Below are positions 20,254 to 52,638 of a stretch of 64,000 bases of DNA, piece after piece (position 1 is the first letter of the stretch; the number at the start of each line of letters is the position of its first letter). Both the position numbers and the translations under genes were made by a program. The stretch comes from Hoeflea sp. BAL378 (GTDB taxonomy: Bacteria > Pseudomonadota > Alphaproteobacteria > Rhizobiales > Rhizobiaceae): contig NZ_JRJG01000002.1 of assembly GCF_000759435.1 (NCBI RefSeq), positions 1 to 64,000 on the forward strand. Direction: 5' to 3'. The notes under the pieces are model-generated. The model made no database searches, was not told the origin of the DNA, and saw only the letters and a program-made list of their open reading frames with translations.

Positions 20254-21858
20254 TCAGGTGTTGCCTTGGACTTCGACCGGCTGCGCCGGAGCCGGCGCAT
20301 CGCGGTCATAGGGCGAGCGCATGCCGGCCTCGACATAGCGCTGGTGATCGGCGCTGCGTTCGTCGAACAGCTCGTCCGCGTCGATCCCCTTCAGTTCCGC
20401 CTCCCGCGGGATGCTCGACGTCCCGTTGGCTATCCGTTCGCTTGCGGCCTTCTCGGATTTCAGGTCGTCTGCCGTGGGCTTCTCCGGACCCTGCCATTGC
20501 GCCCAGTTGGCGGCGCTGCGGTTGGCGCGGTAATTCGCGAGCCCCCCGGGAAACGGAATCGCGCCTGTTTCGATCTTCTCGTCGAGCCACTGTTCGTAGA
20601 ATGTCTGGTACATCGGCGCGGCAACATGCTCGCGCCGGCGCATCACCACCGGCCAGATCGACGCATTCTCCATCCGCACCGACGAATATGTCGCGCTTGA
20701 ATGGTCCATCGTGTAGGCGCCATAGGTGACGCCGATCGCGCGCGCCATGTCGCGGTCGAGCGACTGGGTCAGCGGCAGGTAATTGTCGCCCGGCGCCTGC
20801 GCCTGACGAAACTGCAGGTCCTCGTCGGGCCCCAGAACCGGGATGCGCGCGCCGCCCGTCAGGCTGACGCCGCCCTCGGCCGCCCGGTCGAGCGTGCTGC
20901 CGAGATAGCCCAGCACATTGTCATAGATTGCCTTGCCCGATTCGCCACCGCTATCGGCCAGTTCCCGCAGCGATTCAATGGCTTCGGCCGCAGGCAGCTT
21001 CGAGGTCAGCACCGCTGCGAAGAACGTCTGCACGATCAGCGTCTGCAGCGTCGCCTCGCGCGCCACTTCGGTCTGGGCGTGCTGCTTGAGGATCGGCGTC
21101 AGTTGCGAGATGCCGCGCACGTCATCCGCGTCAAGCGGATCGAAGATGTGCATGACAACCGGTCGGCCGCTCGCATCAAAAGCCGGATAGCGCACCTTCG
21201 ACGGAAACCCGTTGCGCTTTTCCTCGAACAGATAGGCCTCGGCGCGGCTATTTTCGTCGTGATAGACGCCCTGGAACAACCGCTGCGCATCGTTGGTGTC
21301 CTGCACCAGCCGGGGCGGCGGCACCAGCAGCATCTTCGTACCTGTGCGGATGCCGTAGCGGGCGCGCTGACCGGCGTCGAAATGCGTGAGGATCCCGGTC
21401 GTCTCGCCGAATGCGATGTGCCACCGGAGCGAAATCGCCACCAGTTGCGGGATCGTGAACTTGCCGCGATGATCGCATTCACGCGGGTTCCAGGAGTCCC
21501 TCTTCCATTCGGCCTTGACCAGTTTGGACCATGCGACGGCTCGTTCCTTGCTCCATCCAAGCCGGTCATAGTCCGGGGTCGGCTTGAGGATCAGCTCGGA
21601 GCCCACAGTGTCGGCAATCACCTGGTCGACCGCGCCCTTGAGGCGGCCGGAGTTGTGAATGAAGTCGAGCGCCAGGGCCGCCGCGCGGCGCCAGGAGCGG
21701 CGGATCTCGTCGCGGCTTTCCGGTACAGGCGTCAGCCGGGCCGCAAGCACGCCCGACGGGCTGTCGCGCAGCATGCGCATCATCGGCCGGGCCACGGGGC
21801 CGGCGACGGCGTCGCGCGACTGCACTGAGCCTGCACGTGCAATCCTCGGAACCCGCAT
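20254..21858 (-). CDS. Portal protein, lambda gpB family
   Basis: Starting at MRVPRIARAG gives 534 residues, nearly the same as lambda gpB (533). Family features include RSWRRAAALALDFIHNSGRL, NPRECDHRGKFTI, a GTKMLLVPPPRLVQDTND stretch and the GDNYLPLTQSLDRDMARAIGVTYG region. It forms the dodecameric DNA channel of the head. The start overlaps the terminase stop by one base (TAATG) with AAGG just upstream; a start at 21876 is possible. Confidence 0.9.
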   Translation of the reverse strand: MRVPRIARAGSVQSRDAVAGPVARPMMRMLRDSPSGVLAARLTPVPESRDEIRRSWRRAAALALDFIHNSGRLKGAVDQVIADTVGSELILKPTPDYDRLGWSKERAVAWSKLVKAEWKRDSWNPRECDHRGKFTIPQLVAISLRWHIAFGETTGILTHFDAGQRARYGIRTGTKMLLVPPPRLVQDTNDAQRLFQGVYHDENSRAEAYLFEEKRNGFPSKVRYPAFDASGRPVVMHIFDPLDADDVRGISQLTPILKQHAQTEVAREATLQTLIVQTFFAAVLTSKLPAAEAIESLRELADSGGESGKAIYDNVLGYLGSTLDRAAEGGVSLTGGARIPVLGPDEDLQFRQAQAPGDNYLPLTQSLDRDMARAIGVTYGAYTMDHSSATYSSVRMENASIWPVVMRRREHVAAPMYQTFYEQWLDEKIETGAIPFPGGLANYRANRSAANWAQWQGPEKPTADDLKSEKAASERIANGTSSIPREAELKGIDADELFDERSADHQRYVEAGMRSPYDRDAPAPAQPVEVQGNT

Positions 21859-23867
21859 TACTTTCGCCTTTTCCATTTGGCCAGCACGTCGTCCGCCGGC
21901 GTTGTCTTCGAAGCCGCGCCCCGCGCAGGACCGGCGCTCGAGGCGTCCGGCTCGGCCCGTGAAGCGATCTGTTGCGACACCGGCGTGAACAGCGTCTGGG
22001 CTGCGGCTGGCGTCAGTTGCGCCCGCAGCGCCGCCCAGCCCGCGGGCGTCAGGCGCGAAAGGCCGAGATGCTCTGCCATGGCCATGGCGTAGATCCGCGC
22101 GTCGAGAAAGTGGTTGTCGCGCCGGATCTTCTTCCACTCCTCGACCAGGCGTCCGCGCACCATCTTCTGGTCGAAATATTCCGCCGTGATCTGGCGGAAG
22201 AATTCTTCGTTCCGCGCCTCGTTGAAGTGGCAGTAGCCTGCCGGGTCGGCCACTTCGCCCGAACGAAGCCCGAGCCGGTGCAGGTTTCCGTAGAACTCAC
22301 CCTTGAGCGACCATGTCCCGACCGGCCACAGCATGGTCGATCCGACACGCTTGCGCTTGCCGCCCTTGCGCACCGATGTCTTTTTCGGCAGCCCGATGGC
22401 GGCGACACCGCGGCCGTGCTTGCCTGCGATCGCGTAGGTGTCTGGCCGCTCCCGGCACCATTCCAGCACCTGTGTGGTCCGGTTGCCGTCGCCTGCGTCC
22501 ACCGCCATGGCGCCGGCCCTGCGCGTGTGCCCGTAGGCGTCCTGCCAATCGGTTTGGTAAAGCCGGTCAAGCTTCACCCACGCTCCGGCGTTCTTGTCGT
22601 CGGTTTCCCCTTCGAGAAACTCCGCATGCACCGACCAGCTTTGCCTGTCGGAGCCGAAGGCAGCAAACTCGACATAGATGCCGCTGTGCTGCACGTCGGC
22701 GCCGGCGACGAAGATCAGTCCGTCGGCCGGGATCACGCCGTCCGGATAATCCTCGCGGCGCTCCATCAGCCGCTGCCAGTCCGGCGCATTTCCCCGCAAC
22801 TGGTAGGGCAGCGCCAGCACCAGGTTGTGATAGTCTTTGGCCCCCGCCTCGCCGCGTTTCTCGGCCTTGAGCTTGTCCTCGGCGATATCCCCCAGGCTCA
22901 TCAACAGGCTCATGAAGGCGTCGACGTGAAAGCCGGGGTGCCTGTCGGGGCCGGTCTGGGTCGGCCGGTAAGCGCCCTCGCGGACAATCGAGACCCGTTC
23001 CGCTTCCGAAATCCAGTGCCCGCAGGACGGACAGACCATCACGCTCTTGTGCGGCTGCACCCGGTCGACATGGAAATGATCGTCGGACTGGACGAAGTGC
23101 TCCTTGCACTCGACGCATTCCACATACCAGAACCTCTGGTCGGACCGCTTGAACGACCGGTCAATGCGGCAATGGCCCGGATCGTCGCCGAGCGCATCGC
23201 CAGAATCGAGCTCGGGCGTCGACAGCTCGAAGATCTTGTAGCTCCGCTGCCTGCGGAACGCTGTGAAGCGGCCGAAGAACAGCGTCTCTGGATCCGCGCC
23301 ATTTGGCAGTTCGCCCCACTTCGAGACCTCGTCCTTGACCCCGAACCTGCAGGTTTTCATGGACAGGTCCATGACTGTGTTCGCATTGGCGAGCGAGATG
23401 TACCCGCCCGGAAACCGTTTCTCGTAGGTCGTCGAGTTGCGCCCCGACCGGCTGGTCACCGGCAGGATGATTTTCTTGTCCGTCTCGACCTGCCATGCGT
23501 CGATCAGCGGCTGCAGTTTCTGCCCGTTGATGTCCTGCAGCGCGTCGATCCCGGGCACCCCGTACAGGATGTTGTCCGGGCAGACCTCGGCGATGTAGAG
23601 GCACCACGAAAGTGCCAGGATCGACACGCCCGTCTGTTGCGCCTTGCGCACGGTGACCAGGTTGGCAGAGTGCTCCTGGCTGAGGCATTCGGCGATCTCG
23701 ACCAGATACGGCGCGTCCCTGGGCGACCAGAGTTCGCCTTTTCGTGGCCCATCGACCAGCACCACGTTCTCCGACAACCATTCGACGAAGGGCGTCGGCG
23801 GATGCGGCCGGATTGCTTCGGCCAGCCGCGACGCTACCAGCTTGAGCGCCCCAGGATGAACCGTCAC
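21858..23867 (-). CDS. Terminase large subunit, lambda gpA family
   Basis: The 669-residue product has the gpA ATPase core: the adenine/Walker A-like RKAQQTG at 74-80, the DEVSKWGELPNGADPETLF region around 175-195, and a CxxC...CxxC zinc-like pair (VECVECKEH, MVCPSCGHW). The C-terminal nuclease part holds conserved Asp residues (VAGADVQHSG, AVDAGDGNRT). It cuts and packages DNA with the small subunit; gpA-type enzymes usually act at cos sites. The GTG start overlaps the TerS stop (GTGA). Confidence 0.92.
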   Translation of the reverse strand: MTVHPGALKLVASRLAEAIRPHPPTPFVEWLSENVVLVDGPRKGELWSPRDAPYLVEIAECLSQEHSANLVTVRKAQQTGVSILALSWCLYIAEVCPDNILYGVPGIDALQDINGQKLQPLIDAWQVETDKKIILPVTSRSGRNSTTYEKRFPGGYISLANANTVMDLSMKTCRFGVKDEVSKWGELPNGADPETLFFGRFTAFRRQRSYKIFELSTPELDSGDALGDDPGHCRIDRSFKRSDQRFWYVECVECKEHFVQSDDHFHVDRVQPHKSVMVCPSCGHWISEAERVSIVREGAYRPTQTGPDRHPGFHVDAFMSLLMSLGDIAEDKLKAEKRGEAGAKDYHNLVLALPYQLRGNAPDWQRLMERREDYPDGVIPADGLIFVAGADVQHSGIYVEFAAFGSDRQSWSVHAEFLEGETDDKNAGAWVKLDRLYQTDWQDAYGHTRRAGAMAVDAGDGNRTTQVLEWCRERPDTYAIAGKHGRGVAAIGLPKKTSVRKGGKRKRVGSTMLWPVGTWSLKGEFYGNLHRLGLRSGEVADPAGYCHFNEARNEEFFRQITAEYFDQKMVRGRLVEEWKKIRRDNHFLDARIYAMAMAEHLGLSRLTPAGWAALRAQLTPAAAQTLFTPVSQQIASRAEPDASSAGPARGAASKTTPADDVLAKWKRRK

Positions 23868-24472
23868 TGCCCCGCCTCTTCGTCCTCGATCACGTCCTTC
23901 TCGGGCGCGGCAACGGCAATCTCGGCGTACCTTTTTGAGACCGCCAGATTGATCTGGTGAGCCACATCCCTCAGCGCGACCCGCAAGCCGTGAACGCCTT
24001 CCTTGGCAAACGGCCCCGCCAGGTCGTCGGCGTAATTTGGCAGCCTGGCGATAATCGCTTGGGTTTCGCGGCCCAGTATGTCCATCGCCTGCGCTTGCTG
24101 ATCCGCGCTGATCAGCCGTCCGCAGGCTTCGTCATGCTCGAGTTTCAGGCGGCTGTAGCGCAGCCATTCGTTGCGCCGGCGAGCCTCTTCGAAGCTGTCG
24201 GTTTCCGTCACGATGGACGGCGCTTCGTCACGCCTTGGCTTTTCCTCGGGCGGGACCGGCCTCGACGCCAGCACCTTGGCCGGGTTCTGGTACTTGTCGC
24301 GGTAGTGATCGATATGCCCTACCGACACCCGGGCGATCCGCCCTCGCCCGTCGCGCTCGACCGGGATCTCGTGCTTCTCGACCAGCTCGCGCACGGTCTT
24401 CGAAATTGCCTGCCGCGAAATCCCGTCACGCTCGGCAATCTCCGACAGCGTCATCATCACTGTCTCGACCAT
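23864..24472 (-). CDS. Terminase small subunit
   Basis: The product is 202 residues. Residues 5-65 form a winged helix-turn-helix (MTLSEIAERDGISRQAISKTVRELVEKH), followed by a basic linker and long helices. This resembles the Nu1/DUF1441 type that recognises the packaging site. Starts at 24457 and 24529 are also possible. It is followed by gpA with GTGA overlap. Direct repeats at 24522-24569 lie just upstream and could be its binding sites. Confidence 0.8.
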   Translation of the reverse strand: MVETVMMTLSEIAERDGISRQAISKTVRELVEKHEIPVERDGRGRIARVSVGHIDHYRDKYQNPAKVLASRPVPPEEKPRRDEAPSIVTETDSFEEARRRNEWLRYSRLKLEHDEACGRLISADQQAQAMDILGRETQAIIARLPNYADDLAGPFAKEGVHGLRVALRDVAHQINLAVSKRYAEIAVAAPEKDVIEDEEAGQ

Positions 24473-24521
24473 GACCACGCGCTCTTTCCTGATTCTATCC
24501 CTTGATCCCGGCAATCCGGCG

Positions 24522-24569
24522 ACTGACAACCTGACAACGCCCCATCAGCACCACTGACAACCTGACAAC
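24522..24569. repeat. Direct repeat upstream of the terminase genes, possible cosB-type sites
   Basis: ACTGACAACCTGACAAC occurs at 24522-24538 and 24553-24569, and each copy is itself two repeats of CTGACAAC. The repeats lie between the minor tail gene and the small-terminase gene, where lambda has cosN and the R sites of cosB. Link to packaging is inference. Confidence 0.5.
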
Positions 24570-24708: not shown

Positions 24709-25257
24709 TTAGCGCGCCGCGCGGTCGAGCAGGCGGCCCACTTCGTGGATCAGACGCTCTGCGATGTCGCGATCCATGATGGATTGCGCCAGCCTCTGGA
24801 ATTCTCCGTGCCGATCGGCACCCATGGCGTGAGCCGGGTTGGCTGCATAGAGTTCGCGGATCGGCGTGCGGCTCTTGCCCTCGCGGATCAGCACCGCGCG
24901 GCCGCCGGAATACTTCGATGCAGCGATGAACGCCCCCGCATAAGACCCGCGCCCCCGCACGCTCACGCCCTTCCGCGTCTGTCGCGGCCCGAGCTGCGCC
25001 AGCGATACCCAGCGAGATCGAAGCTTGATCTCCACATTCTGGGCTGTCAGCATCATCTGGGTGGCATCGCGGGTGAAGCGATAGGGCAGACCCGAATACT
25101 TGGCCGCCAGACGCGCCACCTGGGTGCGCGCCTTCTTGCCCACATGGTTGGTGGCCGAGCGAAACGCTTTCGCCTTGATGTCAGCCGGCAGCCGATGCAT
25201 CGCCGCGCCGAGCGCGCGAAAGTCGCTGGCATCGATCTTCACACCTGCCGTGCTCAC
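24709..25257 (-). CDS. Minor tail protein Z-like
   Basis: The 182-residue product starts at a GTG with GGAG eight bases upstream. It carries the features of lambda gpZ-type minor tail proteins: an N-terminal helical segment (DFRALGAAMHRLPADIKAKAFRSA), a GKKARTQVARLAAKYSGLP stretch and a C-terminal VLIREGKSRTPIRELYA. It lies upstream of the terminase genes, far from the tail module, and right after a terminator, so it may have its own promoter. In a Mu-type tail its role is unclear. Confidence 0.7.
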   Translation of the reverse strand: MSTAGVKIDASDFRALGAAMHRLPADIKAKAFRSATNHVGKKARTQVARLAAKYSGLPYRFTRDATQMMLTAQNVEIKLRSRWVSLAQLGPRQTRKGVSVRGRGSYAGAFIAASKYSGGRAVLIREGKSRTPIRELYAANPAHAMGADRHGEFQRLAQSIMDRDIAERLIHEVGRLLDRAAR

Positions 25258-25273
25258 GCCGCGATCTCCAATC

Positions 25274-25311
25274 AAAAAACCCGCCAGCCGGCGTGGAGGC
25301 CGGGGCGGGTT
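25274..25311 (-). terminator. Rho-independent terminator, minus strand
   Basis: On the minus strand ACCCGCC (25310-25304) pairs with GGCGGGT (25285-25279), with further GC pairing inside, and is followed by TTTTTT (25279-25274). It separates the replication block from the Z-like gene and the packaging genes. Confidence 0.8.
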
Positions 25312-25363: not shown

Positions 25364-26176
25364 TCAAGATTTGAGCCTCAAGGCCATTTTTACCGAGGTT
25401 GGCGCGGCGAGCCCCGCCACCGCCTCCCACGGCGCCACAGTGGGCACTTCGGCGGTCAGCGCATGACCGGTCAGCCGCCCGGCCACTTCGGCCGCCACAT
25501 GGCGCACAGCCAGCGCCCAGACCGATCGGCGGAAGCGCTCCTCGGCAAGCCCCCCCACCTCATCGGACAGAACGAACTTCCGATAGGCCCCGGCCCTTGG
25601 CCGCCGGCTGCGATAATTGAACCCGTCGACCTCGCAGTCGAAGGCCACGCCCGATGAAGGATCGGTGCGCTGCTGCCTCATGAACCAGGCAGGCTGCCCA
25701 CCGCGCATCACCATGGTGCGCCCGGGCTCCTGCCCGCGCCAGTCGGGCTTGCGGCCCAGCACCGCGCGGGCGATCACCATGGTGCGGATCTCGCGGCCGG
25801 TAAGGGCCGCCAGCCGCAGCACACGCCGGCGCACGGCATCCGCCACCAGCCCGTCCTCATCCGCCCAGTCGCAGAAAGGCGACCAGTCCGGCCCGATCTC
25901 CACCGAGAGCCCGACCAGCCCGTCCACGGCGCGGCCGATCGTGAGCGCGTCCGGGTGCACATCGCCCTCGTCGAGATGGACCGCCACCACGCCATGGGCG
26001 TTGAGAGGCGCGTCGATCACCGTGCCGAGAATGCCGAAATCATAGACCATGCCCCAAGACGATGCGGCAGATGCCGTGTCACAGCCGGATACTGTCCGCT
26101 CCGCCTTGGGCAGTTCCTGCCTATAGGCCCATTCGAGACACTCGATTATGCCCGTCTGCTTTGTGGCCTCTGTCAT
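25364..26176 (-). CDS. Phage protein of unknown function
   Basis: The 270-residue product starts MTEATKQTGIIECLEWAYRQEL. There is no motif I can name. It is soluble, mixed alpha/beta, with VRRRVLRLAALTGREIRT and a DSSGVAFDCEVDGFNYR-like middle part. It lies between the iteron region (26198-26446) and the terminator at 25274, so it is probably expressed from a promoter inside the iteron region. The position suggests a link to replication or the early-late switch. The frame runs upstream into the repeats and is not used there. Confidence 0.65.
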   Translation of the reverse strand: MTEATKQTGIIECLEWAYRQELPKAERTVSGCDTASAASSWGMVYDFGILGTVIDAPLNAHGVVAVHLDEGDVHPDALTIGRAVDGLVGLSVEIGPDWSPFCDWADEDGLVADAVRRRVLRLAALTGREIRTMVIARAVLGRKPDWRGQEPGRTMVMRGGQPAWFMRQQRTDPSSGVAFDCEVDGFNYRSRRPRAGAYRKFVLSDEVGGLAEERFRRSVWALAVRHVAAEVAGRLTGHALTAEVPTVAPWEAVAGLAAPTSVKMALRLKS

Positions 26177-26197
26177 GCGCGTTTTCCTGTTTTGAGC

Positions 26198-26446
26198 GTT
26201 GCACCAGTTTTCACCAGTTTGCGATAGTTTAAGCGATAGTTTTTCTATATATATTTCAATGCTTTGCACCACTTGCACCAGTTTTTGACGCCTATACGCA
26301 TATGGTATTTTCTTCCCGCCGTTTTCTCCCATGCGTATAGGGGCGGCAAAACTGGTGCAGACTGGTGCAACCCATTGATTTCATTCCCCCAAACCCCCTT
26401 GGACAAGTATCGCGAACTGGTGCGCAACTGGTGCAAACTGGTGCAG
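26198..26446. repeat. Iteron array with central palindrome: candidate phage replication origin
   Basis: Nine copies or near-copies of ACTGGTGCA lie in an AT-rich gap. Four are in minus orientation on the left (26200, 26210, 26264 and 26273) and five in plus orientation on the right (26351, 26361, 26416, 26427 and 26437). Between the two sets is a perfect 11-bp inverted repeat, CCTATACGCAT at 26291-26301 and ATGCGTATAGG at 26331-26341. The block sits next to the helicase gene. It could equally be an operator region. Confidence 0.65.
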
Positions 26447-26454
26447 ATTTCACG

Positions 26455-28260
26455 CTAAATCGGCGGGATATCGTCCCAATGCCCGGGCGGAGAGCCGCCA
26501 GCGTCACCCTCGCCGCGCGGCACATTGACGAGCGAGATGCCAAGATAATAGTTGGTCCGCCCCTCCTCCCGCTCGAACTTGCGCTTCATGATCAGCCCGA
26601 AGCGGGTGAGCGATATCGGCTTGCCGCCCTGGTCCACAGTGTAGTTCACATAGGCGTGGTAGAAATCCTTGGCCGTGAGCCGCGCGCCCGCCTCGGGCCG
26701 CACGCAGGCCGCGCAGAAGGCGGCTGTCGGGTCCATCTCGTCGCGATAGTCCTGGGTGGCGCGCGCCACGGCTTCGGGGATCTCGAGCCCCTCCTCGAGG
26801 AACATGCGCACGCCCTCGACCATCCAGTTGAGGATGCCGGAGAACTCGGGCCGGAAATCGTCGAGCACCTCCTCGAAGTCCCGCTGTTCCTCGGGCTTCA
26901 ATTGCACCGGCCAGTGCACCACGCACATGCGTCGCCAGATGCCGTTGTCCATCCCGGTAATGCGCGGATAGCCGTTGCCGCTCATATGGGCGGTAAACAG
27001 CGGGTCGAAGTCGAAATAGCCCTGGTGCAGGTCGCGCGCGGTGATCGCCTCCCCGCCGGTGACTTCCTTGACCAGGTTCTCCTTCAGGTCCTCGCCCACC
27101 GGCAGCTCCTTCACCCGCAGGAATCGCCTTCCGTAGAGCCGGGCGATATCGGGCGAGGCCGAGCCTCCGGTGTTGCTCTCGCCGATGAAGGAGGTGGCGG
27201 GCAGCGTGACCGAGGCCGATCCCAGCAGCCGGCAAATCACCTCCATGGCGACCGATTTGCCGTTGGCGCCCGAGCCGTAGTGGAAGAACAGCTTCTGCAC
27301 CGTCACGCCAACGAGGCCGAGCGAGAAGGCGATCTGCACCAGCTTGCGCACCAGCGGGTCGGGCAGCATGCGTGCCAGGAACGCCTCCCATTTCGGGCAG
27401 GTCGCCGCCGCGTCATACTCCACCGGCACGAGCTGGGTGATCAGGTCGGCGCGCTGGTGGCCGTCGCGCACGTCGACCACGGCGCGGATCTCCTCCGCAT
27501 CCTCCTGGGCGTCCGATTGCGCCGGCACGATCACCGTTTCACGGCCGAACCTGATAGTGTGGTTGAGCGTGGCGAAGGAATAGCGATCGGCGTTGAAATC
27601 GTCCGGATCGCGCATGATGTGCGGCGCGGCGCAGGCCAGCATCGCGTTCATCTTGGCCAGGTTCTTGGAGCCGACCGCGAAGGATGCCCTGCTGGCGCGG
27701 CGCTTGGCCCACGCCTTTGCAGCATCCTCGGCGTGTCGTTTCGCCTTGATTTCGGCCTTGCCGAGCTGCTCATCCTCCTTTTCGAGGAAATGCCCGCCCG
27801 CATCTAGCGCCGCCAGTTCGTCCGGCGTTGGCGCAAGATGCTCGACCTCCATCATGATCAGGTCGCCGAGCTGCTGCGCCAGCGCCAGCGCCCGCGGGCC
27901 GCCATTGTCGGTGTCCCAGCTTGCCCCGGTCCACACCGCGTAAAACGGGCTCTTGGCCTTGGACTGGGTGACCACCAGCAGGTCTGATCCGAAATGTGCG
28001 AGCAGCCGCTTGGCGTTGTCGGTGTCGGAATGATCAAGGAGCGCGCAGGCCGCGATGACATCGCCGAGCGACGGCTTATCCGGCTCACGCTGATTTTCGC
28101 CCTTTCCCCTGCCGCTGTCTGGTTTTTTCCGGGTTGCACCAGTTCCACCAGCACGCGCAGAGCCCAAAGAGGGGTCCGGGGATTTGGCTGTCTCTGGAGG
28201 CGGTGCATGGCCCATGGCGTCAAGCTGGGCCTGCACGGCGGGCGGGATATGCTGGTTCAT
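26455..28260 (-). CDS. Phage replicative helicase, SF3/D5 type
   Basis: The 601-residue product starts MNQHIPPAVQ. The N-terminal 65 residues are disordered and charged; 70-280 match the D5 N-terminal region. The ATPase has Walker A GSGANGKS at 329-336 and a motif C-like FTAHMSGNGYPRI followed by GIWRRM, typical of SF3 helicases. Family role: unwinding at the origin. It overlaps the Dam-type gene by ATGA, and a primase is encoded two genes upstream. The iteron block begins directly after its stop. Confidence 0.88.
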   Translation of the reverse strand: MNQHIPPAVQAQLDAMGHAPPPETAKSPDPSLGSARAGGTGATRKKPDSGRGKGENQREPDKPSLGDVIAACALLDHSDTDNAKRLLAHFGSDLLVVTQSKAKSPFYAVWTGASWDTDNGGPRALALAQQLGDLIMMEVEHLAPTPDELAALDAGGHFLEKEDEQLGKAEIKAKRHAEDAAKAWAKRRASRASFAVGSKNLAKMNAMLACAAPHIMRDPDDFNADRYSFATLNHTIRFGRETVIVPAQSDAQEDAEEIRAVVDVRDGHQRADLITQLVPVEYDAAATCPKWEAFLARMLPDPLVRKLVQIAFSLGLVGVTVQKLFFHYGSGANGKSVAMEVICRLLGSASVTLPATSFIGESNTGGSASPDIARLYGRRFLRVKELPVGEDLKENLVKEVTGGEAITARDLHQGYFDFDPLFTAHMSGNGYPRITGMDNGIWRRMCVVHWPVQLKPEEQRDFEEVLDDFRPEFSGILNWMVEGVRMFLEEGLEIPEAVARATQDYRDEMDPTAAFCAACVRPEAGARLTAKDFYHAYVNYTVDQGGKPISLTRFGLIMKRKFEREEGRTNYYLGISLVNVPRGEGDAGGSPPGHWDDIPPI

Positions 28261-29144
28261 TGTGCCGCCTCCGCAAACAGGGGCGAGCCCGCGCCGCCGG
28301 CGCGCGCATCCAGACGCGCCGCACAGTGCGGGTTGATCCACAGCACTTCGGTGCGTTCCCGCGCCCCATCGGCCAGCGCCATGCGTTCGACACGCCGCCA
28401 GTCGGCCAGCGCATCGTCATAGAGCACGGAGGGATAACCGGAGAGCACCACCATGCCACTCAGGCTGCGCAGCGCCTCGAGCAGATCCATGTGATCTGCA
28501 ACGGTCATCTCATGCCGGTACTGGTGCTTGGGATCATGCGGATTCCGTCGATTGCGCGTTTCCGGCAGATATGGCGGATCGACATAATGCAGGGTCTCCC
28601 GGCTGTCGTGGCACGCCATCACCTGCCGTGCCGGCCGGCGCTCGATGATGACGCCGCGCAGACGCTCGACGATCGCTGGCAGGCCCGCCGGATAGTTCTC
28701 CCAGTCGCGCGCCGGCGTGGTGCCACTGCGCATCGAAGACGCCCGAAATCCGGTGGTCTTGTGGCCCCGGCCCATGTCCGAGTGAGCATTACTACCGAAC
28801 CCCATAAAGGAGCGCGCAATTAGCCTTCGCGCCCTCTCCACCGGCTCCTCGCAAATGTCCCAGACATGTTCAAACTCGCTGCGCGCGAAAGGCGTCAGCT
28901 CAAGCAGACACCTCAGGCGCTCTGCGGCGGCTTTATCGCGCAGGATGCGGAACAAATTGACCACTTCGTCATCGAGATCGTTGTAGATCTCGGCATAGGT
29001 GCGCTTCTTGCGCAACAGGACAGAGCCGGCGCCGCCATAAGGCTCGACATAGACCCGATGGCTGGGAAAGTGTCCAATGATCCAGGGTGCCAGCAGCCAC
29101 TTTCCGCCATGCCAGCGCAGAACGGGCCTTGATATTTCACTCAC
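28257..29144 (-). CDS. DNA N6-adenine methyltransferase, Dam/D12 class
   Basis: The 295-residue product starts at a GTG overlapping the primase stop. Motifs: RWHGGKW (10-16), SAM-binding YVEPYGGAGSVLL (32-44), NDLD (55-58) and catalytic DPPY (189-192). This is the D12 class of adenine methylases. The target could be GATC, but this cannot be told from sequence. In phages these enzymes protect the genome from restriction or time replication and packaging. Confidence 0.9.
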   Translation of the reverse strand: MSEISRPVLRWHGGKWLLAPWIIGHFPSHRVYVEPYGGAGSVLLRKKRTYAEIYNDLDDEVVNLFRILRDKAAAERLRCLLELTPFARSEFEHVWDICEEPVERARRLIARSFMGFGSNAHSDMGRGHKTTGFRASSMRSGTTPARDWENYPAGLPAIVERLRGVIIERRPARQVMACHDSRETLHYVDPPYLPETRNRRNPHDPKHQYRHEMTVADHMDLLEALRSLSGMVVLSGYPSVLYDDALADWRRVERMALADGARERTEVLWINPHCAARLDARAGGAGSPLFAEAAQ

Positions 29145-30499
29145 GCCGCATCACCCCTCATGCCTTCCAATATCGTCTCCGCCCAGTCCTGCCCCGCCGG
29201 CGGCCACAGCACCGGCACGCGGGCCTTGGGCGCCAGCAGCAGCGCGCGGGCCTGCGCCCGGGCCATCATGGTGGCCGTCCAGTAGGGTTCGGAATCGCCG
29301 TCGCCGAGCAGCACGAGCTCGGTGATGTGCGCAAGAACCGGGAAGCCCTCGTCGAGCCGCTCCGGGTCCGGATCAGGGCTTGGCAGCATCACCGGCCGGA
29401 CAGCGCCCGCGGCATTGACCGTGGTCTCAAGGGGATGTTTCCAGCGTCCGGTGCGGGCAGCCGCGCCCGCCAGGTTGCCGATGTCGCCGGCGGCGGCATA
29501 GAAGGTCGAGAGCGCCAGTTGGAAGTCCTCGCGCAGCTCCTTGCCCAGCCAGGCGCAGACATTCTCGCTGCCCTCGCCCACCACCCAGCGGCTGGCGCTC
29601 ATGTCGCCCGCGATCGGCAGCAGCCCGCCCTTCTTGGTGCCGCGCATCTTCTTGGTGGGCAGCCGCTCGTAATACCCGGCCGCCAGGTCCTCGGCCGAGG
29701 GCCATGCAGATGTCGGCGGGCCCGCCCGGTCCTCGCGCCCCGCCCCTGCGCCCGCCTTGGACAGGCCATAGAGCACCGGGCGCCGCTTCGGGGCGACGTC
29801 CATATCGATCCATGTCTGGTGGATCCCGATCATCTCGCCGGCGCCATCGACGAAGGGCAGCACGAGCGCCGGGCCACACCAGATGTCGCGAGGATTGCCG
29901 CGCTCGTCCTGGCCGTGCCAGTAGGTGAGTTTTCCGACGCACCGCGCCGGCTGCACCATCGCCCGGGCATCAACGGGCAGGCCGGAGCGGTTATAGAGAT
30001 ACTCCGCCGCAAAGGTGCCACTGATCCCCGGCTCCGCCGCCGCATAGATCCCCCGGCATTTTGCCAGCTCCTTCTCCCGGAACTCGCCGGAGGTCCTGTC
30101 GCGCTCCGTGGCTTTGCGCGCCGCGTCTTCCGCGCGGGCCTTTGCGTCCGCCTTCATCTCGGCCCGCCGCTCGTCGCTGATCTCTTCGGCCCCGTCGGGC
30201 ACATCCTCCCCGAGGGAAAGCGCGCAGGCCTCGAGGAATTCCGCCCGCCGTTTCAAATCGAGCCTTTTGGCGTGGGCGACAAGGCCGATGCCGTCGCGCC
30301 CGCCCGTGCCGCAGCCGCGGCAGTTCCAGGCGTTTTCCGCCGGGTGGATCGCAAAACGGTCGGTGCCGCCGCAGACCGGGCACGGCATCGACTGGTCACC
30401 GCGTTTCTTGGGGTCAAGCGGCAGCTTGAGCCGCAGCGCCGCCGCCTCCACCGTCACGTCCCGGGCCTTGGCGACGAAGTCGTCGATGATCTCGGTCAC
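29141..30499 (-). CDS. Phage primase with zinc ribbon and TOPRIM-like domain
   Basis: The 452-residue product has an N-terminal DnaG-type zinc ribbon, CPVCGGTDRF...WNCRGCG (about residues 40-65). A central region contains the TOPRIM-type WVVGEGSENVCAW around residue 305, where Glu of VxEGxE is expected. It makes RNA primers for phage replication with the helicase two genes downstream. GTG start, overlapping the methyltransferase stop. Confidence 0.87.
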   Translation of the reverse strand: MTEIIDDFVAKARDVTVEAAALRLKLPLDPKKRGDQSMPCPVCGGTDRFAIHPAENAWNCRGCGTGGRDGIGLVAHAKRLDLKRRAEFLEACALSLGEDVPDGAEEISDERRAEMKADAKARAEDAARKATERDRTSGEFREKELAKCRGIYAAAEPGISGTFAAEYLYNRSGLPVDARAMVQPARCVGKLTYWHGQDERGNPRDIWCGPALVLPFVDGAGEMIGIHQTWIDMDVAPKRRPVLYGLSKAGAGAGREDRAGPPTSAWPSAEDLAAGYYERLPTKKMRGTKKGGLLPIAGDMSASRWVVGEGSENVCAWLGKELREDFQLALSTFYAAAGDIGNLAGAAARTGRWKHPLETTVNAAGAVRPVMLPSPDPDPERLDEGFPVLAHITELVLLGDGDSEPYWTATMMARAQARALLLAPKARVPVLWPPAGQDWAETILEGMRGDAA

Positions 30500-32742
30500 T
30501 CGGCAGCCTCCGCAAACTCCGCCAGGTGCGGCACGTTCGCGCCCGCGATCGCTGCCGCCAGCGGCGGGCAGACGCTGTTGCCGGCGCGGCCCACCTGGTC
30601 GGATTGGGAGAACACCCGGCCCTCGAGGTCGCGGTCGATCCGGTAGCCGTGGGGGAACCCTTGCGCATTGAACAGCTCGCGCGGGATCAGCATCCTCATG
30701 CCGATGTCGACCATCACCAGCGTCACCATCCCTGCTTCGGTGGGCACGTCGATCGTGACGAACTCGCGCTCATCCCAGAAGCCATAGGCGCGCAGGAACG
30801 CCGCCACCTCGCGGGCGCGGGCATAGTGCTCCGGCCCGAAGGGCGGCGCGGCCAGCGCGGCGCTGGTCAGGCAGAACCGGTCCTTCGTGGTCACGGTGTG
30901 CAGCGGCTCGATGGCCTCCTGCCCGTCGCCGGTTCCGTAGTATTTCACCAGGGCGCCCGCCACGACGCCGGTCTTGTTGACATCTGCCGTCACCGCGCCG
31001 GTAGGCTCCCCGGCACCATGGCCAGTCGAAGCACCGAACTGTCGCGTCACATGCGCCGCAACCACGCCCTGCTGCGCGCCCGACGCGGTCACCGTCGAAA
31101 CCGGCTCGTCTGCCGCCCTTCCCGGGTTCACCCCGCCGATGCGGCGGATGTCGTTGTTGTGCTGGGCAACAAAGCCAGCAGCCGGCATGGCGGGGAAAAA
31201 CCGACACCCAAAATCTTGATCAATACTTGAGCCATCACTCACCGGGAGGCTTGTTGGATGTACAGTTTCAAATTTCGGCATATCACCTTGCGAGGTAAGG
31301 GGCTTGTTGGTCTCTTGGCGCTTGGCCTCATTGTTTTGGCGGCCATTTGTTGTGCCGCGTGAACTCGCCAGCGAGGCCGCCACGCAAGTCAGCCCGGCCC
31401 CGCCGGCGGTCACCGTGTGAGCCGGTTCATCGGCCCCCTGGAACGGCTTGCCAGCATTGCGCATTGTCATCAGGTGCGGCGCTACGACCGCGTTCTGGTC
31501 CTTGGTCGAGGCCGTCACCGTGTGCAGCGGGTCCTCGGGTGATCGAACCGAACCGCCCTGCTGGGCATAGGTCATCACCGGAGCCACCACCGCGTGGCGG
31601 TTCTCCGTCACCACGGTCTGCAGCGGATTGGCCGGGTCGGCGCTGCGGTCGTTGCCGCCGCCGCCCTCGCCGTAATAGGCATTGATCACGGGTGCCACCA
31701 CGCCCAGCGGCGCGGCCCCGCCCGGTCGCTTGTGAAAGCTGTTGGCCGTCACTGTCGGCGCGGGCGCATCCATGGCCGCGCCCGTCGCGCCGGCGTTGAA
31801 CCGGGTCAGCGACGGCGCGACCACCGCCTTCTCGCCGCGATTTGCGCAGGTCACCGTGCGCAGCGGATCGCCGATGTCCTCCAGCCGCGCCCCGTGTGTG
31901 AGGTTCACCAGGAACGGCCGCGACGCATCCAGCACGTAGCGCTTGATGCCCCGCGCCACCCGCGCCATTGTGTTGTCCGCCAACGGTCGCACCGCCCGGA
32001 GGCCATGGCGCGCGAGGATCTCGGCGCGGCTGTCGAAGATCGACGGACAGACAATGTCCCAGTCGATCACGTCATGCCCGGCCGTGAGCCACGGCTTGAG
32101 CCTGCCAGCCTTCACCGCCTCGCTTTTCGGGTCTCCATGCGTCGGTTTCGGCCAGACGATCGGCTTGCCATCGAAACGGATCAGGATGAACACCCGCTTG
32201 CGGATGGTCGGCGCGCCATAGTCGCAGCCTCGCATCTCCTTCAATTCGATCTTGCCGCCGAGCTGCTTGAGCTTCCTGCACCACGCCTTGAAGGTCTCGC
32301 CCTTCCGCTCCGGGTCCGGCATCAGCCCCTTGTCGGTGATCAGCAGCGGACCCCAGGTCTGGAATTCCTCCACGTTCTCGATCGCCACCACGTCGACCTT
32401 GCCGCCCGATCTCTGGATCCGCTCGATCCAGCCCGGGATGATCCACGCCAGATCGCGGATATTCCGCTGCACCGGCGCGCCGCCCTTGGCCTTGGAGAAG
32501 TGCTTGCAGTCGGGCGAAAACCACGCAAACCCGATATGGGCCCGGGCGAAATGGTCGAGCGGGTCGACCTGGTAGACGTTCTGGCACAGATGGATGCTGT
32601 CGGGATGGTTGACCGCATGCATCGCCACGGCCACCGGATCGTGGTTGATCGCGTAGTCCGGCGAGCGCCCGAGCGCCATCTCGATACCCGTCGAGGCCCC
32701 GCCGCCGCCCGCGAAACAGTCGATGATCAGCGGGCGGGTCAT
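30496..32742 (-). CDS. DNA cytosine-5 methyltransferase with repeated recognition segments
   Basis: The 748-residue product is about twice the usual length. It has motif I FAGGGGAS (10-17), the phage-type motif IV SPDC (76-79), ENV (122-124), a QRN... motif and C-terminal motifs IX-X (QVGRAGNSVCPP). Between them are eight copies of a PLxTVTA...VVAP unit (residues about 292-620), where normal enzymes have one before the recognition domain. An AT-rich stretch without repeats (about 31200-31365) interrupts them. Multispecific phage enzymes are known, so several DNA targets are plausible. Start chosen for AGAGG and the ATGA overlap. Confidence 0.88.
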   Translation of the reverse strand: MTRPLIIDCFAGGGGASTGIEMALGRSPDYAINHDPVAVAMHAVNHPDSIHLCQNVYQVDPLDHFARAHIGFAWFSPDCKHFSKAKGGAPVQRNIRDLAWIIPGWIERIQRSGGKVDVVAIENVEEFQTWGPLLITDKGLMPDPERKGETFKAWCRKLKQLGGKIELKEMRGCDYGAPTIRKRVFILIRFDGKPIVWPKPTHGDPKSEAVKAGRLKPWLTAGHDVIDWDIVCPSIFDSRAEILARHGLRAVRPLADNTMARVARGIKRYVLDASRPFLVNLTHGARLEDIGDPLRTVTCANRGEKAVVAPSLTRFNAGATGAAMDAPAPTVTANSFHKRPGGAAPLGVVAPVINAYYGEGGGGNDRSADPANPLQTVVTENRHAVVAPVMTYAQQGGSVRSPEDPLHTVTASTKDQNAVVAPHLMTMRNAGKPFQGADEPAHTVTAGGAGLTCVAASLASSRGTTNGRQNNEAKRQETNKPLTSQGDMPKFETVHPTSLPVSDGSSIDQDFGCRFFPAMPAAGFVAQHNNDIRRIGGVNPGRAADEPVSTVTASGAQQGVVAAHVTRQFGASTGHGAGEPTGAVTADVNKTGVVAGALVKYYGTGDGQEAIEPLHTVTTKDRFCLTSAALAAPPFGPEHYARAREVAAFLRAYGFWDEREFVTIDVPTEAGMVTLVMVDIGMRMLIPRELFNAQGFPHGYRIDRDLEGRVFSQSDQVGRAGNSVCPPLAAAIAGANVPHLAEFAEAAE

Positions 32743-33110
32743 GCGCTTGCCTCTGGCCATTTGATGTCCCAGCTCACGTCATACTCGATAGTCCGCTGCC
32801 GTTGCTCCTCCCCCAACTCATTCCCGAAATGTTCCACGTTTGGCCTGCCGTAACACGTTGTTTCCGTTGCATCCGTCATTGGCGGGATGTCGAAGTGGTC
32901 GAGTGGCAAGTCGAGCCAGCGGATCAGAGCATGGACCTTGGCCACGCCCACCACATGGCCGCCGCAGGCCATGGAAACATCCTTGCCGGTGACGGCCACG
33001 AGCGCTGCCAGCGCGCGCACGCTCAGGTTCTCGGCCCGCCGCTTTTGCTCAAGCGCGGCGGCGAAAGCGCGCCGGTCAAAGCCCGCCAGTTTCGGATTAT
33101 CCGACTGCAT
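32739..33110 (-). CDS. Small XRE-like DNA-binding protein
   Basis: The 123-residue product starts MQSDNPKLAG, with GGAGG eight bases upstream. Residues 12-70 (FAAALEQKRRAENLSVRALAALV...) look like an XRE-type helix-turn-helix, followed by DLPLDHFDIPP, which often follows such domains. The C-terminus is acidic. It may regulate early genes. The ATGA overlap with the cytosine methyltransferase suggests it is made with it and might control it. Confidence 0.6.
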   Translation of the reverse strand: MQSDNPKLAGFDRRAFAAALEQKRRAENLSVRALAALVAVTGKDVSMACGGHVVGVAKVHALIRWLDLPLDHFDIPPMTDATETTCYGRPNVEHFGNELGEEQRQRTIEYDVSWDIKWPEASA

Positions 33111-52308: not shown

Positions 52309-52638
52309 TCAGGGCTTGGCTTTGCCCTTCACCTTGCGGCTGACATGGCCCTTGAGGACCCGGTTCTTGAGCACGTTGGAGGCCTTGAAGGTCATCACCC
52401 GGCGCGGGCTGATCGGCACTTCCTCGCCGGTCTTCGGGTTGCGGCCGATCCGCTCTTTTTTCTCGCGCACCTGAAAGGTTGCGAAGGAGGAAAGCTTGAC
52501 GCTGTCGCCGCGGACAATGGCGCAACACACTTCATCGATGACCATTTCGACAAGCTCTGCGGACTCGGTTCGCGAAAGCCCCACCTTGCGGAACACCGCT
52601 TCTGCGAGATCAGCCCTGGTGATCGTTTTGCCGCTCAT
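52309..52638 (-). CDS. ihfA: Integration host factor alpha subunit
   Basis: Starting at [20 protein letters not shown] gives 109 residues. The HU/IHF fold is clear: [50 protein letters not shown] and the Pro-containing DNA-intercalating arm in [11 protein letters not shown] bends DNA, and phage integrases of this kind generally need it. The gene lies in the usual fabH-ihfA-merR order. Confidence 0.93.

Follow-up and report, generated by a model that had tools for sequence, protein, structure and literature searches.

A two-sided array of short repeats beside an SF3/D5 helicase gene as the probable replication origin of a Hoeflea prophage

For a few animal viruses and for elements such as P4 and SaPI, it is known in detail how an SF3 helicase locates its origin and opens it. 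The window analyzed here, a stretch of 64,000 nucleotides of Hoeflea sp. BAL378 DNA, contains at positions 26198-26446 an array of short repeats that adjoins the gene of a prophage-encoded SF3 helicase, and raises the question of what this array does and which protein reads it. The original prediction was a likely phage origin. That view is supported by a link between the repeated word and the helicase, by a P4-like fold in the helicase, and by the recurrence of the array beside the helicase gene in other phages. From these comparisons, it appears highly probable (roughly 85%) that the array serves this prophage as its replication origin, and that the adjacent SF3/D5 helicase binds it by its C-terminal winged helix.

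As had been predicted, nine copies of a ACTGGTGCA-type word (zero or one mismatch) lie in two blocks of opposite orientation, four on the minus strand at 26200-26282 and five on the plus strand at 26351-26445. Three further sites with the same spacing, overlooked earlier, carry a second word of the ACTATCGC type; two of them are on the minus strand (26221-26228 and 26233-26240), and one, AGTATCGC, is on the plus strand (26406-26413). Together, the two words form a dyad of 12 sites, with six minus-strand sites at 26201-26282 and six plus-strand sites at 26351-26444, arranged as 4+2 on the left and 2+4 on the right (4-2/2-4 below) with a centre at 26316-26323. The elements of the array are as follows.

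26201-26240, minus strand: outer-left quartet of words (26201-26208, ACTGGTGC; 26211-26218, ACTGGTGA; 26221-26228, ACTATCGC; 26233-26240, ACTATCGC)
26240-26259, no strand assigned: AT-rich stretch, by its sequence a candidate unwinding element
26254-26266, plus strand: IHF-like site TTTCAATGCTTTG, one mismatch to WATCAANNNNTTR, mirroring 26368-26380
26266-26282, minus strand: inner-left pair of words (26266-26273, AGTGGTGC; 26275-26282, ACTGGTGC)
26291-26301, plus strand: left arm of a perfect 11-bp inverted repeat kept only in close relatives
26331-26341, minus strand: right arm of the inverted repeat, whose centre is at 26316
26351-26368, plus strand: inner-right pair of words (26351-26358 and 26361-26368, both ACTGGTGC)
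26368-26380, minus strand: exact IHF-like site AATCAATGGGTTG, abutting the inner-right pair
26386-26398, minus strand: G-rich element GGGGGTTTGGGGG, recognized by sequence
26406-26444, plus strand: outer-right quartet of words (26406-26413, AGTATCGC; 26416-26423, 26427-26434, and 26437-26444, all ACTGGTGC)

The centres calculated for the mirror pairs are 26322-26323 for the four outer pairs and 26316.5-26317 for the two inner ones, and the two IHF-like sites mirror each other around 26317. The repeats are not due to chance: the most frequent 8-mer occurs nine times in 26191-26450, compared to a maximum of five times in 300 dinucleotide shuffles. When pairs of one word spaced by 9-12 bp were counted on both strands (the array score), the array had the single top score (5; the runner-up had 4) among 981 overlapping 260-bp stretches of the window. 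Matches to the paired word, with up to three mismatches, were confined to the array in the whole genome. An array-like score at 58.9-59.0 kb was produced by loose, irregular GC-rich repeats only.

The array directly follows the helicase gene, and a primase gene lies two genes upstream of the latter, both as originally described; ten bases separate the nearest array site from the helicase stop codon (26455). The gene order on the minus strand is primase, adenine methyltransferase, helicase, array, p9306, neck/tail-completion protein, small terminase, and large terminase, the last being assigned by reading of the open reading frame after the small terminase.

29141-30499, minus strand: primase with a zinc-ribbon domain
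28257-29144, minus strand: adenine methyltransferase
26455-28266, minus strand: SF3/D5 helicase, 603 amino acids, the proposed initiator
26509-26739, minus strand: C-terminal winged helix of the helicase (residues 510-586), like the P4 origin-binding domain
25364-26176, minus strand: p9306 gene (PHROG 9306, unknown function), the next gene past the array
24709-25275, minus strand: neck/tail-completion protein
23864-24529, minus strand: small terminase, 1.7 kb downstream of the array

Related loci were collected by helicase and p9306 searches of viral contigs and genomes. The 259 regions found downstream of the helicase were reduced to 178 distinct ones by identity of the first 300 bases, a procedure that leaves near-identical regions in the set; one of them (L004) is the window's own phage (100% identical) and is not an independent row. 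The set comprised 103 close-family regions, 42 in which p9306 is accompanied by a second helicase type, and 33 distant ones that lack p9306. A simple repeat count proved too noisy in GC-rich coding DNA, ranking the downstream stretch strictly first in only 62 of 103, 28 of 42, and 4 of 33 regions. The stricter spaced-pair statistic was therefore used, and it did so in 78 of 103, 31 of 42, and 10 of 33 regions. According to the original prediction, the origin reading would fall if close relatives that keep the helicase lacked the array, which most of them do not. Just downstream of the helicase, an array score of at least 3 was reached by 86 of the 103 close-family regions, by 33 of the 42 of the second type, and by 12 of the 33 distant ones, compared to 92 of 5375 background stretches taken from these loci (17, 9, and 21 regions of the three classes, respectively, were below this score). 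Six of seven isolated phages had their best score (3 to 6) in the array-holding stretch: Rhizobium RR1-A, where the array lies two genes past the helicase and not directly after it, Paracoccus Pthi1, Rhodobacter RcapNL, Aurantimonas AmM-1, cyanophage Pan4, and Lacticaseibacillus C4.1. In the seventh, a Listeria phage, the best score was not in the expected stretch.

The layout of the array recurs as well. Sites were counted in the 92 of 103 close-family regions with at least seven sites, and 73 of these arrays could be placed in a layout. The arrangement 4-2/2-4 was the commonest (18 of 73), followed by 3-2/2-4 (11) and 5-2/2-4 (8), and 467 of 706 spacings between neighbours were 9-12 bp. Six was the commonest number of sites per side (29 of 92 on the left, 36 of 92 on the right) and 12 the commonest total (24 of 92), while exactly 6+6 was obtained by automatic counting in 15 of 92 arrays. 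The window phage itself was counted automatically as 5+4 by its main word, and becomes 6+6 only when the second word is added. Compared to gap-shuffled positions, a mean of 61% versus 47% of the sites were mirrored; individually, only 29 of 125 arrays reached a value of 0.05 or less, and exactly one strand change was present in 42 of 125. Opposed blocks, which had been regarded as unusual for iterons, are usual beside this SF3/D5 helicase family, and both orientations are also present in the crr element of P4.

The earlier picture of an array centred on a palindrome holds in part: the perfect inverted repeat 26291-26301/26331-26341 is present and the opposed blocks around it recur widely, but the palindrome is kept in close relatives only. 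It is retained in L117 and also in L005, in which both arms are altered together, is weaker in L043, and is degenerate in L017. No perfect repeat of equal length was found in nine more distant arrays, a count made with no chance baseline; among these, L007 has a different 11-bp repeat with a mismatch. The sites at 26254-26266 and 26368-26380 are called IHF-like by comparison with the IHF consensus WATCAANNNNTTR. Exact IHF-like matches are present in 32 of the 103 close-family regions, in 6 of the 42 of the second type, and in 3 of the 33 distant ones, versus 89 of 5375 background stretches. The G-rich pattern GGGGN2-4GGG is found in 91 of 103, 19 of 42, and 5 of 33 regions of the same classes, versus 719 of 3848 background stretches. 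Elsewhere in the window, at 52354-52626, there is a match to ihfA (IHF alpha, TIGR00987, 130 bits, above the cut-off).

The helicase contains a D5_N domain (PF08706, E 2.2e-11), matches PHROG primase/helicase families, and is encoded by the one D5_N gene of the whole genome. Its fold matches are to the D5 family (7ola, 8hwd, and 8apl), and the whole protein was superimposed by VIA-align on the SaPI5 primase-helicase 7ola with a Z of 14.3. In the AlphaFold model, the ATPase part is weak (pLDDT below 50 for residues 352-446), while the C-terminal domain is better (block means of 75-91 over residues 511-580). Residues 510-586 were aligned by VIA-align with the phage P4 origin-binding domain (1ka8_A; Z 8.4, rmsd 2.6, 75 aligned residues, 23% identity); RFX DNA-binding domains tie with 1ka8 here (Z 8.5-8.8), the fold being common to both. 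The N-terminus of the helicase had been proposed as the binder. The fold of the P4 origin-binding domain was found at the other end of the protein instead, and by these models the array would be expected to be bound by the helicase C-terminus, not by its N-terminus.

The words that make up the array vary from locus to locus (ACTGGTGC, ACTATCGC, ACTGTCGC, AATGGTGC, ACTATCCA, ACCCTCGC, ACTGGTCA, AGGGACGC, AGGGAGGC, and more), with 23 different 9-base consensus words in 58 clusters, and one can ask which of the neighbouring genes they follow. Correlations were calculated for 120 of the 178 regions (p9306 score of at least 150, helicase open reading frame of at least 480 amino acids, at least six sites, L214 and L257 excluded). 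With p9306 held constant, similarity of words was correlated with similarity of the helicase winged helix (partial r 0.546, a value reached in 0 of 200 permutations). When it was the winged helix that was held constant, similarity of words was not correlated with that of p9306 (r -0.022, reached in 170 of 200 permutations); controlling for the ATPase part instead gave r 0.035 for p9306 (17 of 200 permutations). The winged helix contributed beyond the ATPase part (partial r 0.239) and the ATPase part beyond the winged helix (0.093), each with 0 of 200 permutations; in all these figures the rows are mutually related, and the permutations leave the kinship in. A word was common to 218 of 621 pairs of loci with a similar helicase (at least 55% identical) and a dissimilar p9306 (below 40%), but to 0 of 324 pairs in which p9306 was at least 55% and the helicase below 45% identical. 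In L193, L194, L196, L198, and L201, p9306 is 52-57% identical to that of the window (58-67% in local tblastn matches) and the helicase only 32-34%; the word there is of the AGGGAGG type, not ACTGGTGC. The results suggest that a change of word tends to accompany a change of helicase, not one of p9306 or the terminase. Since the array and the helicase gene adjoin, linkage could account for part of the correlation; the sole control for linkage is p9306, which adjoins the array on the other side.

In the window (26221-26240 and 26406-26413) and in L006-L024 and their relatives, the mixture of words depends on the position in the array. Of 17 arrays that are not dominated by GGTG words, 15 have a ACTGGTGC-like copy at the innermost-left place (the exceptions are L006 and L058), and all 10 GGTG-dominated arrays keep at least one ATCG copy in the outer-right cluster.

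An initiator helicase with iterons downstream of its gene is of a kind already known, the P4/SaPI type of origin, and the window has three features of this class: a D5_N SF3 helicase, a C-terminal winged helix, and an iteron array directly 3' of the gene. The winged helix of the P4 alpha protein is described as binding the origin repeats, and its primase as residing in the same protein as the helicase (PMC4234260). In the P4 record, crr lies 45 nt past the alpha stop codon and has ten annotated type-1 repeats in both orientations (++ -- + per 120-bp unit); crr is required, and a second element 4.5 kb away is annotated as the origin. Common to P4 and the window are an SF3 helicase with a C-terminal winged-helix origin-binding domain, as judged from the fold match to 1ka8, and 8-bp words, many about 10 bp apart and in both orientations, just past the helicase gene. 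Unlike P4, with its two separate elements, the window has a single compact dyad of 12 sites, which uses another word and includes IHF-like sites, and its primase is encoded by a gene of its own. A second cis element with the repeat of the first, as in P4 proper, is not seen here, the paired word being present in the array only. SaPI Rep is reported to recognize, by its C-terminal domain and apparently as two hexamers, iterons directly downstream of its own gene, and the isolated C-terminal domain of SCCmec Cch2 to bind its repeats (PMC7581432). By that description, an origin directly 3' of the helicase gene, short iterons, and a C-terminal recognition domain are shared with the window, as is the 7ola fold in the case of SaPI5; the SaPI and SCCmec elements differ in their hosts, and Cch2 has, as described, only three iterons. 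The initiator of the archaeal plasmid pRN1 likewise is described as having an SF3 helicase and a C-terminal winged helix, with an essential origin region directly downstream (PMC4234260); according to the same source, that origin differs in being a 100-bp stem-loop without iterons. A further non-coding phage element acting as an origin, which confers phage resistance when present in many copies, is that of Streptococcus phage Sfi21, as summarized in a citing paper.

The P4 precedent also provides an alternative, in which the array is a helicase-bound control element like crr, needed in cis, and replication starts elsewhere in the phage genome. The same location, both orientations, and the separate annotated P4 origin 4.5 kb off speak for it, but a genome search with the paired word (up to three mismatches) gave no site outside the array, none of the other stretches among the 981 of the window equals its score, and the array itself contains an AT-rich stretch and IHF-like sites; we consider a control element of this kind unlikely. 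Two more readings differ in the protein that would bind. If the small terminase, encoded 1.7 kb downstream, recognized the array, it would be a cos or pac packaging site. Terminase genes do follow the array, the centre of the array is G-rich in many relatives, and in RcapNL (L269, 40169-40489; L274, 1-138) the cohesive ends are annotated within the outer-right part of the equivalent array, so that cos and the array are neighbours in that phage. The array is not inherited with the terminase, however. The same word is found beside large terminases that are only 23-26% identical (L025, a fragment, and L038 versus L007, L013, L014, and L015), no match to the small terminase was obtained for 22 of 36 loci (a few of these loci stop short of its place), and the word follows the helicase. 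A packaging site is thus barely credible.

The other reading, an operator or enhancer bound by the p9306 protein and controlling p9306 and the late genes, was the main alternative of the original prediction, according to which the left part of the array might hold the promoter of the 25364-26176 gene. No sigma-70-like promoter was found inside the array. The array does lie just upstream of p9306, and the helicase and p9306 occur together in 215 of 263 loci, a count that is not deduplicated and includes many loci fetched with p9306 as the query. The word, on the other hand, is not inherited with p9306, as seen from both the partial correlations and the absence of common words in the 324 swap pairs, and arrays are present where p9306 was not detected at E 1e-5 (L155 and L162, and with less certainty L110 and L185, where a diverged p9306 is possible, since their relatives L108 and L116 match weakly). 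The p9306 protein, for which a confident model was obtained (pLDDT 83.8), had no fold match in the PDB (best E 0.71) and no match to a DNA-binding family or fold. We regard an operator of this kind as very improbable. Both the packaging site and the p9306 operator are disfavoured because the terminase and p9306 are exchanged independently of the word, while an origin bound by the helicase best explains why the word follows the helicase, why the helicase C-terminus is P4-like, and why relatives keep the array. The GC skew, suggested earlier as a check, shows no switch at 26.3 kb, which says little for a prophage.

At an origin bound by the helicase, the helicase subunits would bind the words via their C-terminal winged helices, six per side and in opposite orientation, and an IHF-like protein might help to bend the DNA. 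Two head-to-head hexamers could then assemble over the dyad centre, and the rings would melt the AT-rich stretch and move apart, giving bidirectional replication. Strands would be started by the separate phage primase and extended by host enzymes. Two opposed hexamers are the simplest model in view of what is described for P4 alpha, SaPI Rep, and Cch2, and of the position of P4 crr.

If the winged helix reads the word, the specificity might be traced to individual residues. The words of the close family are mostly in one register, AC(T/C)N(G/T)(T/C)(G/C/A), and the analysis was started from 77 rows that had a helicase of 450 amino acids or more and a word in this common register with a score of at least 3.4. 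Mutual information with the word, calculated for the 68 rows with p9306 (58 after clustering), was on average highest in the winged helix; the top 20 columns by corrected score were distributed between the ATPase part (9), the winged helix (6), the N-terminal part (3), and p9306 (2). Residue 571 of the helicase, which the model places in the loop joining the two wing strands, is small (G, A, or T) in 20 of the 21 rows whose word has G at position 5 (the exception, L111, has V) and in 7 of the 56 whose word has T at this position. On a tree built without the winged helix, position 5 changed five times; among four supported independent pairs, residue and position changed the same way in one to three, depending on the pairing, and never in opposite ways. 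At residue 568, 39 of the 45 rows with G at word position 7 have an acidic amino acid, as do 4 of the other 32; six supported independent pairs gave one or two same-way changes and no opposite ones. Both residues were picked post hoc, after looking at the data, and no significance can be claimed for the code, because the supported independent pairs are too few. The covariation of residues 568 and 571 with the word is suggestive of a candidate recognition code.

The recurrent layout near 4-2/2-4, the switching of words, and the candidate recognition residues may be new. In the open-licence literature, to the extent that the texts were accessible, no description of a common scheme near 4-2/2-4 with changing words across many phages was found, which is not proof of absence. 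A wider reading of the sequence comparisons, which we offer tentatively and with some doubt, is that a large group of phages shares an origin blueprint of 6+6 sites (4-2/2-4), one site per subunit of a double hexamer, in which only the word changes, together with the helicase and via a wing code in which residue 571 reads position 5 and residue 568 reads position 7. The helicase and array would then form an exchangeable replication cassette, with a word predictable from the protein sequence and defining phage incompatibility groups, and mixed arrays such as the one in the window (nine GGTG and three ATCG words) would have been caught midway in a switch. Dozens of putative natural origins on a similar scheme (73 placed, 18 exactly 4-2/2-4) are at hand, each with its word beside its presumed reader. 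Because so many differ in the word beside their own helicase, whether the number of sites equals the number of subunits, and which residues set the specificity, become directly testable questions, and natural co-variation of word and helicase offers a way to learn how such helicases recognize their start sites. It would also allow phage origins to be located computationally from the helicase gene, and provide a basis for predicting mutual interference of phages in replication.

Several minor observations concern the neighbouring genes. p9306 sits between the array and the late genes in many of these phages. It is only weakly recognizable (score 88) in L049 (5993-6658) and L120 (5993-6658), where the helicase is present and the array has six sites, and has no BLAST match in L012, from the same contig as L049, where the helicase is present and the array recognizable. 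At 21858-24529 and in the relatives, terminase subunits have been swapped for unrecognizable or about 25%-identical ones, the replication block being otherwise conserved. Finally, a C5 DNA methyltransferase of 754 amino acids (30496-32760) has, by eye, internal repeats of the EPLHTVT...VVAP type between its conserved parts, which are perhaps several target-recognition units.
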